Of a stretch of DNA of 64,000 nt, positions 18,361 to 46,810 are shown piece after piece. The DNA lies in contig NZ_JAFFJX010000006.1 of the NCBI RefSeq assembly GCF_016924755.1, forward strand, positions 186,001 through 250,000, read 5' to 3'. This DNA comes from Longitalea arenae. Lineage in GTDB: Bacteria; Bacteroidota; Bacteroidia; Chitinophagales; Chitinophagaceae. A program made the translations under genes and the position numbers. The notes beneath the pieces were generated by a model, which made no database searches, had not been told where the DNA came from, and was given only the letters and a program-made list of their open reading frames with translations. Every line of letters starts with the position of its first letter. Position 1 is the first letter of the stretch.

Positions 18361-18680
18361 CCTCTTTTAAATATGCCACTCTCCCGCAGCCATCATTCAG
18401 CATCCGCCGTTCTCATGCGTCGAGCCGCTCAGCCTCTTTCTTATTTTAAGCGATTAATAAAGGTTGTTGAACCCAGCAGCTCCTTTTAAATGGCCATTCT
18501 CCGGGAAGCCATCATCACCTTACGCCGTTCTCATGCGACGAGCCGCTCGGCCACTTCCTTATTTTAGCGATTAATAAAGGTTGTTGAACCCAGCAGCTCA
18601 TTTTAAATGGCCATTCTCCGGCAGCCATCATCACCTTCCGCCGTTCTCAGAGCCACCAGCCGCTCAACCGCTCGCCATTT
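18361..18680. repeat. Tandem repeat of 117-119 bp, about 2.7 copies
   Basis: Three successive copies can be aligned on the anchor TTTTAAAT at 18365, 18484 and 18601, giving periods of 119 and 117 bp. Each copy carries a block with GCAGCCATCAT, CGCCGTTCTCA and GAGCCGCTC. The first two complete copies end in the same AATAAAGGTTGTTGAACC segment; the third is cut short after about 75 bp. Copies 2 and 3 are more alike than copy 1, suggesting stepwise duplication. No conserved open frame runs through the units. Confidence 0.85.
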
Positions 18681-31347: not shown

Positions 31348-31493
31348 GATTTTGAGATTTTGAGATTTTGAGATTTTGAGATTTTGAGATTTTGAGATTT
31401 TGAGATTTTGAGATTTTGAGATTTTGAGATTTTGAGATTTTGAACTGTCTGACAAATCTCAAAATATCTAAATCCCGAAATCCCTAAATTTTT
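31348..31493. repeat. Octad element: 12 perfect GATTTTGA units plus reverse arm
   Basis: Twelve identical 8-bp units GATTTTGA fill 31348-31443 without a mismatch. A 10-bp linker follows, then five degenerate units in reverse-complement sense at 31454-31493 (AAATCTCA, AAATATCT, AAATCCCG, AAATCCCT, AAATTTTT). The two arms can pair into a hairpin. The same plan recurs at 36776-36892 and 56755-56846. It lies between the sirtuin start and the DUF4349 stop. Confidence 0.95.
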
Positions 31494-36775: not shown

Positions 36776-36892
36776 GGGATTTCGAGATTTTGGGATTTGG
36801 AGAGCTTCCGACAATAAAACCTCTCAATAAATCTCAAAATCTCTAAATCTCTAAATCTCAAAATCTCTAAATCTCTAAATCTCTAAATCGGA
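36776..36892. repeat. Octad element with forward and reverse arms
   Basis: A forward arm of degenerate octads (GGATTTCG, AGATTTTG, GGATTTGG) at about 36778-36804 is followed by a linker with CTTCCGACA. Eight consecutive octads in reverse sense then run from 36829 to 36892 (AAATCTCA or AAATCTCT, last unit AAATCGGA). In the first seven, only the last base varies. It matches the elements at 31348 and 56755. Confidence 0.9.
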
Positions 36893-43705: not shown

Positions 43706-44701
43706 TTAATCAACGATGAACGGATAATCGGGCGTCATCACGATGTCTTTCAGTACTTCGTCTTCCGTTGGGAATGGCGATTCTTCTGCAAATTTCACCG
43801 CTGCTGCTACTTTATCGTTCACGCGTTTATCGATTGCTGCAATTTCGTCCTTGGTAGCGTATTTGTTCTTTTGAATGGTATTCAATACCAGTTGAATGGG
43901 GTCACGTTGTTTGTACTCTTCCACTTCTTCCTTGGTACGGTATTTCTGGGGGTCAGAAATAGAGTGCCCTTTGTAACGATAGGTCTTGATCTCGAGCAAA
44001 GTGGGTCCACCGCCTTCGCGGGCTCTTTTCACGGCGCGTGAAATGGCTTCATGTACCGCTTCAGCGCTCATGCCGTCTACTGAATCAGCAGGCATTTCAT
44101 ACGCATCGGCCAGTTTAAAGATATCGTGTACGTTGCTGGTACGGGTTACCGACGTACCCATGGCGTAGTTGTTGTTCTCGCAAATGAAAATGGCCGGTAA
44201 TTCCCAGGTCATGGCCATATTGAATACCTCGTGCAAAATACCCTGGCGGGCAGCACCATCACCAAAGAAAGTGAGTGATACATTGTCTGTGCCCTTGTAT
44301 TTTTCGGCAAACGCCAAACCGGCTCCGGTTCCAATCTGGGCGCCTACGATCCCATGACCACCGAAAAAGTATTCTTTCTTACCAAAAAAGTGCATACTGC
44401 CCCCTTTACCCTTGGCGCAACCTGTTGCTTTACCATACAGTTCGGCCATACAGCTTTCGGGACTCATGCCTTTGGCAAGGGCCAGACCGTGGTCGCGGTA
44501 AGCAGTTACAAAAGGATCTTCCTGGCGGGTAGCGGTCATAACACCGGCGGCGATGGCTTCCTGCCCAACATAGGCGTGGAAAAAGCCGCGGATCTTCCCT
44601 TCCATTTTATATTTTTCTTCGGCTGCCAGTTCAAATTGACGGATCAGGAGCATTAACTCATACCAGTACAAATACGTTTCTTTGGAGAATTTCGAAGCCA
44701 C
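43706..44701 (-). CDS. pdhA: Pyruvate dehydrogenase E1 component, alpha subunit
   Basis: The thiamine-diphosphate-binding subunit of the pyruvate dehydrogenase complex, which turns pyruvate into acetyl-CoA with the beta subunit, E2 and E3. Starting at the GTG at 44701 gives a 331-residue product with the family's usual length and beginning (VASKFSKETYLYWYELMLLIRQFE). An ATG 186 bp upstream would add an implausible proline- and cysteine-rich stretch that overlaps the promoter, so I reject it. The thiamine motif runs from GDG (147-149) to the NN near 177 (FICENNNYAMG); TYRYKGHSISDP carries the phosphorylation-loop-like segment. Other complex genes are not in the window. Confidence 0.93.
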   Translation of the reverse strand: MASKFSKETYLYWYELMLLIRQFELAAEEKYKMEGKIRGFFHAYVGQEAIAAGVMTATRQEDPFVTAYRDHGLALAKGMSPESCMAELYGKATGCAKGKGGSMHFFGKKEYFFGGHGIVGAQIGTGAGLAFAEKYKGTDNVSLTFFGDGAARQGILHEVFNMAMTWELPAIFICENNNYAMGTSVTRTSNVHDIFKLADAYEMPADSVDGMSAEAVHEAISRAVKRAREGGGPTLLEIKTYRYKGHSISDPQKYRTKEEVEEYKQRDPIQLVLNTIQKNKYATKDEIAAIDKRVNDKVAAAVKFAEESPFPTEDEVLKDIVMTPDYPFIVD

Positions 44702-44771
44702 AGTATAAAAAATTTGAGGTTTTAGCCTCACCGGCCCCCGACAAGTCGCGGCTGGCTGGCAAAGGCGGGGG

Positions 44772-44779
44772 CAAAGATA
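44772..44779 (-). promoter_or_regulatory. -7 box of pdhA
   Basis: The minus strand reads TATCTTTG, an exact TAnnTTTG. The predicted start lies near 44768, leaving a leader of about 67 nt to the GTG at 44701, which supports the GTG start. No exact TTG at -33 was found. Confidence 0.55.
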
Positions 44780-44905
44780 GGGTAAGAAAGGGAAAAATGG
44801 AATGGCGATCTGGAATTTTAGGCCTAATATATGGTTTGATAGCCAGTTGGTTGGGAGAAAATTTGCCGGCAGGGCTGTATTTGGCACATATTTCTTCGAA
44901 AATCC

Positions 44906-45186
44906 GGTTGCCAGTTACCCGGTTACCAGGTACCGGTTACCAGGTACCGGTTACTAGGTACCAGTTACCGGTTACCGGTTGCCTGTTGCCAATTGCCAGT
45001 TGCCGATTGCCGATTGCCAATTGCCAGTTGCCGATTGCCAATTGCCTGTTGCCAGTTGCCTGTTGCCGATTGCCAATTGCCGATTGCCAGTTGCCAATTG
45101 CCAGTTGCCTATTGCCAATTGCCGGTTGCCTGTTGCCAATTGCCTGTTGCCAATTGCCAGTTGCCGATTGCCAGTTGCCGATTGCC
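44906..45186. repeat. Large heptad array, 40 consecutive units
   Basis: Forty consecutive 7-bp units with only one indel (an extra C after unit 2). Units 1-10 are mostly NNTTACC or AGGTACC. Units 11-40 are all NNTTGCC: the five bases TTGCC are invariant in 30 of 30 units and the two leading bases vary among AA (8), AG (7), GA (7), TG (5), GG (2) and TA (1). All units are in the same orientation. It lies between pdhA and recF, which are divergent. Long frames read through it in several phases because a 7-bp unit has a 21-bp codon period; I do not consider them genes. Confidence 0.97.
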
Positions 45187-45688
45187 AGGCATCGAGCCAG
45201 TTTGCCCCGCTGCGATGCCCCTTCGCCGGCTTCAGCGCTTTGTTTGCCTGCGATCAACCAATGCTGCGTGACTTTCGATCATTGCAAGCCGGATTTGGGT
45301 CATAACTGCCTGCCATTGAGCCACACAAACCGTTTTATCTGCTAAGCAACCTTCAAAACCCGCATTATAACGGATCTTTCATCATTTCCAACTTACTTGA
45401 GATCAAATCCAGCTTACTTGTGAGCGTTTCCGGCTTACCTGGGGTTATTACAGCGTGAATTTTCATCATTTCAGGCTGTAATCATGTGTTTAGCCCTTGC
45501 CATGACAGCCGCACTTGTTGCAGCGGTGCCAAAACAAGGTACAATGAGCTAATAACAACTTACTGTGACAATAAAACTGCTTACAGGTATGAAAAAGCAG
45601 GCTGATACCGTTTACAAGCAGCTAACTTTGCCGCATTTCAACCATGTAATCACCCAAAGCACGATTAGCAAAACGATTTTGGTTAATA
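45187..45688. other. Upstream region of recF
   Basis: No gene is seen. Three degenerate direct repeats of 21-22 bp lie at about 45383-45440, each with TCCAACTTACTTG, TCCAGCTTACTTG or TCCGGCTTACCTG. The recF -7 box is at 45623. Confidence 0.5.
45623..45630 (+). promoter_or_regulatory. -7 box of recF
   Basis: An exact TAACTTTG (TAnnTTTG). Predicted start about 45634, some 94 nt before the TTG start codon of recF. No clear -33 TTG. Confidence 0.45.
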
Positions 45689-45727
45689 TTGCAGGATTTT
45701 TACAGTAAGCAAAACCTATTACCATTA

Positions 45728-46810
45728 TTGCTGGTCCTGAACAACATATCACTCACCCAATTCAAGAACTATCAAACCCGGAATTTTCTTTTCACGGAAA
45801 GGATCGTTGGCATTTGCGGACCGAACGGCGTGGGCAAAACCAATCTGCTCGACGCCATTTACTACTGCTGTTTTACCAAAAGTTATTTCACGCGCGGCGA
45901 TAGTCAGAATATTTTACACGGATCGGGCGGCTTCCGTATCGAGGGCCATTTCAATTTGCAGAATGATGCGCTGAAAGTGGTTTGTATTCTGCGGGAAACC
46001 GGTCGCAAGGAGTTTTCTGTAAACGACGAACCCTATGAGAAATTCGCGCAACATATCGGCAAACTGCCCTGCGTGATCATAGCGCCTGATGACGTACAGA
46101 TCATTACCGGTGGCAGCGAAGAGCGCCGCCGCCTGCTCGATGCCCTGCTCTCCCAGCTCGATGCCGCCTACCTGCAACAACTGATGGATTATAACAAGGT
46201 GCTGCAGCAACGCAACGGCTTCTTAAAATCACTGGCCGAAAAAAAGATCACCGACTACAAATTGCTTGATGTATACGATGAGCAACTGGCGCGTTATGGC
46301 GATACCATTTACCAGAAAAGAAACGATTTCCTGCAAAGCTTTCTGCCCCTGGTAGGGAAATTCTACACGCAGATCGCCGGACAAACAGAACCGCTGGCCT
46401 TAACCTACGAAAGCCAGCTGCACGACTGTACATTCCCCACCTTGTTACAGCGCTTACGCCAGAAGGATTGTATCGTACAACGTACCAGCGGTGGCATTCA
46501 TCGCGACGACATCAATGCGCAGCTTAATGACCAGCCCTTTAAATCCCTGGCCTCGCAGGGACAAAGAAAAAGCCTGCTCTTCGCCATGAAACTGGCCGAG
46601 TTCGAGACCCTGAAGCAGGCAAAACAATTTCCCCCCCTGCTGCTGCTCGACGATGTATTTGAAAAACTCGATGCCGGCCGGATGCATAACCTGCTCGACC
46701 ATGTATGTGTGCAGAACCTGGGGCAGGTATTTATTACCGATACCCATGCTGATCGTATCAGGTTACATTTCGATAATTTGAATATTCCCTTTCAGTTGAT
46801 GGCTTTGTAA
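45728..46810 (+). CDS. recF: DNA replication and repair protein RecF
   Basis: An ATP-binding SMC-like protein that acts with RecO and RecR to load RecA on single-stranded gaps. Features are Walker A GPNGVGKTN (31-39), the RecF core CVIIAPDDVQIITGGSEERRRLLDALLSQLD near 118-148, the signature-like LASQGQRKSLLFAMKLAE near 275 and Walker B LLLLDDVFEKLD near 305. The 360-residue length fits the family. The TTG at 45728 is preferred, because RecF usually begins MxLxNLxLxxFKNY (here LLVLNNISLTQFKNYQ); a TTG 13 codons earlier is possible. It is followed by the DUF721 gene. Confidence 0.92.
   Translation: MLVLNNISLTQFKNYQTRNFLFTERIVGICGPNGVGKTNLLDAIYYCCFTKSYFTRGDSQNILHGSGGFRIEGHFNLQNDALKVVCILRETGRKEFSVNDEPYEKFAQHIGKLPCVIIAPDDVQIITGGSEERRRLLDALLSQLDAAYLQQLMDYNKVLQQRNGFLKSLAEKKITDYKLLDVYDEQLARYGDTIYQKRNDFLQSFLPLVGKFYTQIAGQTEPLALTYESQLHDCTFPTLLQRLRQKDCIVQRTSGGIHRDDINAQLNDQPFKSLASQGQRKSLLFAMKLAEFETLKQAKQFPPLLLLDDVFEKLDAGRMHNLLDHVCVQNLGQVFITDTHADRIRLHFDNLNIPFQLMAL

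Follow-up and report, generated by a model that had tools for sequence, protein, structure and literature searches.

The window analysed here, a stretch of 64,000 nucleotides from the genome of the soil bacterium Longitalea arenae (G000; 7.28 Mb in 40 contigs), holds two divergently oriented genes with an array of heptanucleotides in the gap between them. The first, pdhA, encodes the E1 alpha subunit of pyruvate dehydrogenase on the minus strand (43706..44701, GTG start at 44701) and is recognized by TIGR03182 above cutoff and by PF00676, while the second, recF, lies on the plus strand (45728..46810, TTG start at 45728, with an in-frame upstream TTG at 45689) and matches TIGR00611 above cutoff. 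The array is located about 204 bp from the start of pdhA and 500-540 bp from that of recF. The segment upstream of pdhA (44702..44905) is alike across the genus when the sequences are read by eye, and the likeness stops at the first heptads. Between the array and recF (45188..45690) there is a degenerate tandem periodicity of 21 bp (z = 8.2 at lag 21 and z = 7.2 at lag 42 against shuffles), a feature separate from the array. The corresponding gap of the relatives, designated here by G numbers, has the same period in G007 (z 11.6), G002 (z 8.4) and G001 (z 5.3) and a period of 20-21 or 40-42 in G003 and G005, and it is missing from G004 and G006, whose gaps are shorter; by eye, the motif of this period differs between species. 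In the preliminary description, the array had been placed between the divergent promoters of pdhA and recF. The genes themselves were borne out by NCBIfam models above cutoff, which cannot be said of the promoters: promoter and terminator scans of the gap stay at about the level of shuffles, with three sigma-70-like matches (versus 1.9 in shuffles) and no match to the Bacteroidota-type promoter motif.

The array spans positions 44906-45186, i.e., 281 bp made up of forty units of 7 bp and a single additional C near 44920, and it was rightly reported as real: the three-core pattern TTGCCNNTTGCCNNTTGCC has 29 matches in the window, 28 of them inside the array, and none in 100 shuffles of the window, and Tandem Repeats Finder detects it with period 7 (score 229) and with period 21 (score 254). 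Its first ten units (44906..44976, plus strand, including the extra C) are GTTACC-type heptads, in order GGTTGCC, AGTTACC, GGTTACC, AGGTACC, GGTTACC, AGGTACC, GGTTACT, AGGTACC, AGTTACC and GGTTACC, in which the TTGCC core is broken; since G002, G003, G006 and G007 have comparable short runs at the orthologous position, this would be the older part. Units 11-40 (44977..45186, plus strand) read NNTTGCC in 30 of 30 cases and would be the expanded part, no such run being seen in the eight relatives with the gap. Exactly as first described, NN is AA in eight of these units, AG in seven, GA in seven, TG in five, GG in two and TA in one, which means two purines (RR) in 24 of the 30 and C in none. Given that these six values exhaust the pairings of {A,G,T} with {A,G}, few changes suffice to produce all of them. 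The statement that only two of the seven bases vary is correct for this block of 30 units and fails over the 37-unit stretch that is detected as a run, where five of the seven positions do; moreover, the left border of the block is set by the core itself, which units 1-10 break. Likewise, the argument from probability that was built on the 30 intact cores is less strong than it seems, because it takes the units as independent and the block was picked by the very feature under test.

Several other identities can be set aside for this array. No reverse-complement arm lies within 400 bp of it in a 12-mer test and none appeared in a repeat search, whose sole palindrome nearby (12 nt, at 44815-44830) falls outside the array; the reported lack of a reverse arm thus holds, and an inverted-repeat or hairpin element in the DNA is rejected. 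A CRISPR-like array is rejected as well, since the “spacers” would consist of two bases with six recurring values instead of unique sequences of similar length. A 182-aa open reading frame crosses the array on the plus strand and has no NCBIfam match, and the segment 44800-45700 has no match in a phage collection at the sensitivity used.

By recF, the nearest relatives are Longitalea luteola and Niastella species (Chitinophagaceae), the closest of them 84% identical at this gene; the comparison set comprises one genome per species, so that the relatives are other species and not strains. The pdhA-recF gap is visible in the fetched loci of eight of them. Four (G002, G003, G006 and G007) carry short GTTACC-type heptad runs where the array begins here, G005 (by eye) and G009 carry heptads of other types, G004 has about 4.6 GTTTCAC-type units close to recF, and no heptad run was seen in the gap of G001. 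In G009 (N. yeongjuensis; L061 / L074) the gap contains a GTTGAAA-type heptad array together with an inverted AACTTTC-type arm. Copy number at this locus therefore differs among related genomes, from 40 units here to short runs or none elsewhere, the longest run detected in the gap of the eight relatives being of 9.6 units (G009). A long array of 30 units is absent from the gap in eight of eight, which argues that it grew in the lineage of Longitalea arenae.

When the GTTACC-type units of G002, G003, G006 and G007 are aligned with the first ten units of the array, the orthologous site proves to be degenerate, with six of the seven positions varying, unevenly: position 1 is G in 20 units, A in 11, C in 2 and T in 1; position 2 is G in 30, T in 1 and A in 1; position 3 is T in 24, G in 4 and A in 1; position 4 is T in all 30; position 5, the G of the “core”, is A in 20, G in 5, T in 3 and C in 2; position 6 is C in 29 and A in 1; and position 7 is C in 27, G in 2 and T in 1. 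Position 2 is thus nearly fixed in the aligned units and variable in the 30-unit block, while the reverse is true of position 5. This reversal is what growth from few founders predicts, and not what a lasting selection on TTGCC predicts. The preliminary description had pointed to an even spread of changes over all seven positions in related strains as the observation that would speak against it; what was found is variation at six positions, distributed unevenly and among species instead of strains.

How unusual, then, is the 30-unit block? Neutral simulations in which blocks were duplicated and deleted, mutation was uniform and unit diversity was matched left only two variable positions in 81 of 10,221 cases, in 3 of 781 if few identical neighbours were also required and in 20 of 4,692 if the longest repeated word was limited to four units at most; the matched probability is accordingly 0.4-0.8%, a figure that is unadjusted, as are those given below for unit order and for the 39 arrays, and that refers to a block chosen after the fact. 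Over the 37-unit stretch, five variable positions compare with 6.4 expected (P=0.16). Variable positions are also somewhat few across 39 heptad arrays, 32 of which fall below expectation (Stouffer z -3.3). The earlier contention that neutral decay would scatter changes over all seven positions is therefore upheld in part, by the low probability of the block under a uniform neutral model and by the mild deficit over the 39 arrays, and loses its force over the longer stretch. Uneven mutation may contribute to the deficit; C>T and G>A make up 90 of 319 minor alleles. If about four changes were needed to generate the block, the chance of their confinement to two positions would be 0.13 (0.04 for an adjacent pair), taking GG and AG as ancestral, a polarisation inferred from the aligned units; with five changes, these chances would fall to 0.04 and 0.013.

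The order of the units is informative as well. Identical neighbours are rarer than chance in the block (1 of 29, versus 5.4 expected; P=0.017), a deficit that counts against an expansion by one-unit slippage. No significant self-match indicative of block duplication was found in the 30-unit order (best P=0.34), and identity three units away shows no excess (5 versus 5.0 expected). Pooled heptads lean the same way, identical neighbours numbering 90 against 103.7 expected (z -1.9). Copying of blocks can be seen in the pooled arrays, where heptads have 101 identities at a distance of three units (82 expected, z 2.8) and octads 29 at a distance of two (18.7 expected, z 3.3); in 3 of 12 other long arrays, block self-matches occur at P<0.05. 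Growth by some 14-21 bp at a time, and not by single units, would fit this pattern of neighbours and lags. The adjacency of variable positions does not significantly exceed chance, either in 65 heptad arrays (p=0.45) or in 26 octad arrays (p=0.06).

The array is far from alone in its genome. With runs detected by lag matching, a 244-kb sample (contig C36, 1-180000, plus the window) yielded 19 arrays of period 7, 12 of period 8 and one of period 9, against none in one dinucleotide shuffle; none of periods 4-6 or 10-13 was found in these 244 kb around the array, in which some arrays have periods that are multiples of 7 or 8 and a few have other, longer ones. The density of period-7 or period-8 arrays in this sample is 127 per Mb, and that of 400 kb of contigs C11 and C22 is 22 per Mb (five of period 7, four of period 8 and three of period 9), an approximately six-fold difference between sampled contigs of one genome. 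In the relatives, 400 kb of G007 gave 36 arrays of period 7, 14 of period 8 and one of period 12 (122 arrays per Mb), G004 gave 78 per Mb plus five of period 11, and 200 kb of G005, a single 9.03-Mb contig, gave none of period 7 or 8 and two of period 9. Among 80 recF-neighbourhood loci of relatives (667 kb, periods 4-12), 19 arrays had period 7, five period 8, one period 6 and one period 11. Other genera of Chitinophagaceae had five period-7 arrays in 120 kb, all in one stretch, and no such arrays were found in 60 kb of other families. The unit differs from array to array (AACYGGY, AAACNAY, GATTTHGR, TTGACCA and others), and the arrays are biased toward intergenic DNA, only 2 of 31 period-7/8 arrays of the 244-kb sample lying inside open reading frames. 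Within the window there are, for instance, an octad array of 12 perfect units, GATTTTGA, at 31348-31443, another, TAAATCTC, at 36828-36889, and a 117-bp tandem repeat in 2.6 copies at 18365-18666. A mobile element carrying the arrays was considered and provisionally set aside: the first 60 of 453 flank matches had the look of orthologous flanks, overlapping flanks or neighbouring units.

The pooled comparisons rest on a set of 100 arrays, of which the 244-kb sample supplied 31 and G007 49, the other 20 lying in eleven 20-kb stretches of G000 that were picked for holding TTGCC arrays; after filtering, 65 heptads and 26 octads were left for adjacency, 48 and 13 for lag identity, and 39 for the count of variable positions. 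Inverted arms accompany 14 of 31 octads and 7 of 69 heptads of this set.

Many of these arrays touch the ends of genes. In 1.44 Mb of G000, G007 and G004, with genes called by a custom ORF script and random placement as the expectation, 39 of 120 3' gene edges lay within 6 bp of a period-7/8 array edge or overlapped it, versus 9.0 expected, and so did 9 of 92 5' edges, versus 5.7 expected. Random placement cannot yield overlaps, and 23 of the 39 overlap the gene end by 1-23 bp, leaving 16 against about 9; the contrast between 3' and 5' edges is free of this flaw, both edges having been counted alike. An example is found in L185 (G007 C38 260001-280000). In 36 cases, the bases of the stop codon fit the phase of the array at 58, 72 and 75%, versus 28-56% for the twelve preceding bases, which indicates that the first unit frequently, though not in every case, includes the stop codon. 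Much of the excess may come from arrays providing the earliest in-frame stop. The array between pdhA and recF is not at a stop codon, and period-7/8 arrays in general have no marked preference for start codons.

TTGCC cores are also abundant elsewhere in G000, with 240 three-core matches genome-wide. In most of the fetched sequence of this genome, 201 units are flanked by two intact cores, 139 of them intact, 49 with one change, eight with two and five with more. By construction, 28 of the 139 belong to the focal array, leaving 111 intact units and 62 of 173 changed, in a count biased toward intact units since many of the loci were fetched for holding three intact cores. Single changes are unevenly placed, 18 at each C position, seven at the G, and five and one at the T positions. 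The other TTGCC arrays range from homogeneous ones (12 consecutive CATTGCC units in C11) to others in clear three-unit blocks (GG GA AA, in C22). Three-core matches occur in 10 of 10 genomes of the genus, with 11 to 377 in each (0 to 57 for a backward control).

Taken together, these comparisons make it likely that the array is a degenerate heptanucleotide repeat that was enlarged in this lineage, and whose core needs neither special selection nor a rewriting machinery. A short degenerate run of GTTACC/GTTGCC type would already have existed at the pdhA-recF spot in the genus, and blocks of units would have been gained and lost there, presumably by polymerase slippage or unequal recombination. 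If such growth and loss were faster than base substitution, all units would go back to one or few founders and share their core. Some early substitutions (G/A and G/A/T, in the two leading positions) would have been copied and shuffled through the block; we infer this order of events from the array and its relatives. The uniformity of the core would thus follow from descent from one or few founders, and the array is probably neutral, with no function needed at the site. The preliminary description had offered three causes for the pattern, namely selection on the core, repeated copying and a mechanism altering two bases in each unit; repeated copying is the one that the comparisons back, with short heptad runs or none in the gap of the eight relatives.

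A second account of the growth itself, which we regard as unlikely, is that Niastella and Longitalea possess an amplification process with a fixed step of 7-8 bp that creates degenerate heptad and octad arrays, often at gene ends; the array between pdhA and recF would be one product, and an invariant core with non-repeating neighbours would be the signature of this process and not that of whole-unit slippage. The excess at stop codons lends it less weight than the bare count suggests, since most of that excess stems from arrays running over the gene end, an arrangement beyond the reach of random placement.

Selection that keeps the TTGCC core, with a protein or nucleoid factor binding multimers of it and the two spacer bases free to vary, appears improbable. 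It would be consistent with the 30 intact cores out of 30, with the low matched probability of the block, with the mild concentration of variation over the 39 arrays and with the rarity of changes at the two T positions of cores elsewhere. However, no relative has the long array, and a position of the core varies among them, with six of seven positions variable at the orthologous site; more than a third of the cores elsewhere in the genome (62/173) are changed; and outside the genus four-core arrays are rare: of 246 other genomes drawn from the phylum 3 have them, a number equalled by the backward pattern.

Exchange or template switching among the dispersed TTGCC arrays, with the shared core guiding the pairing and NN variants being imported, is rated slightly lower still. 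The 240 matches of this genome, the presence of three-core matches in all ten genus genomes searched and the full grid of NN values would suit it, but the NN values available elsewhere are of another kind: in the fetched sequence of G000 they are mostly CA (57/196) and TA (41/196), whereas the intervals of the focal array have CA in 0 and TA in 1 of 29.

A structural constraint is judged less likely again. Under this reading, C-RR-UUG hexamers of plus-strand RNA would self-pair through G-U wobble, giving a long hairpin in which each unit has a single C-C mismatch, and purines at NN would keep the pairing. The plus strand does fold better than dinucleotide shuffles (z -3.9, versus -1.4 for the minus strand), two purines occupy NN in 24 of 30 units, and the main stem pairs six of the seven bases per unit. 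Nevertheless, permuted positions within the unit match this in 27% of cases, 86 heptad arrays show no increase in self-pairing, the energy of the block (-66.3) is within about 1.2 sd of that of random D-R + UUGCC arrays (-58.1, sd 7.2), and the unpaired C is just as invariant. We take the predicted fold to be a by-product of the array.

Diversity-generating retroelements rewrite adenines, and a dedicated mutator that rewrites two bases per unit could be imagined from the two-position pattern of the focal block, but it is highly improbable, given that variable positions show no adjacency excess over the 65 heptad arrays, that C never appears at NN and that other arrays vary at other positions.

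Taken alone, the array is of little import, other than showing how a striking “conserved core” can arise from founder expansion plus the choice of a block by its core. The genus offers more, with stretches full of 7- and 8-bp arrays and almost none of other short periods. Why do these arrays so often touch stop codons? The same stretches are suited to asking it, and they are also a good place to test a proposal made for the heptanucleotide long simple sequence repeats of prokaryotes. These are over-represented in many genomes (Mrazek 2007, as cited in PMC4679880 and PMC4692102), and, according to these two papers, the 7-bp slippage step has been proposed to follow the length that contacts the polymerase. 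The traits of such repeats were found here, that is, period 7 beyond chance, intergenic location, many arrays per genome and a copy number that differs between relatives. Both consist of tandem 7-bp units, although the present arrays have degenerate units and include many octads, and the genus is not among the genomes named in the consulted sections of these papers (PMC4679880, PMC4692102). Literature queries, mostly without genus names and with subscription papers largely outside their reach, returned no account of such arrays in Chitinophagaceae.

Two described families resemble the array. The GGGNATC and GGGGA(C/T)T repeats of Xanthomonas and Nostoc are heptads scattered over the genome that form quadruplexes in vitro; they have a heterogeneous form, GGGANTN, with two variable positions, and differ in length and sequence between related species, many of them lying near or overlapping stop codons (PMC4692102). 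They share with our array the two variable positions and the variability between related species. Unlike them, which are G-rich, NNTTGCC has no run of three G, and neither strand of the 30-unit block contains one, for which reason a quadruplex heptad of GGGNATC type is rejected. The TAACTGA heptamers of Beggiatoaceae, Cyanobacteria and some Bacteroidetes are intergenic, in arrays reaching 43 copies; two close Cyanothece strains differ in them mostly by indels in 7-nt steps, and in the BOGUAY genome they lie mostly just upstream of start codons (PMC4679880). That family has one fixed unit, whereas the arrays described here use many kinds of unit and show no clear leaning toward start codons, and it is rejected in view of the NNTTGCC and GTTACC types of the units. 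The array between pdhA and recF thus belongs with the heptanucleotide simple sequence repeats, outside the GGGNATC and TAACTGA sequence families, and is ordinary in kind and large in size.
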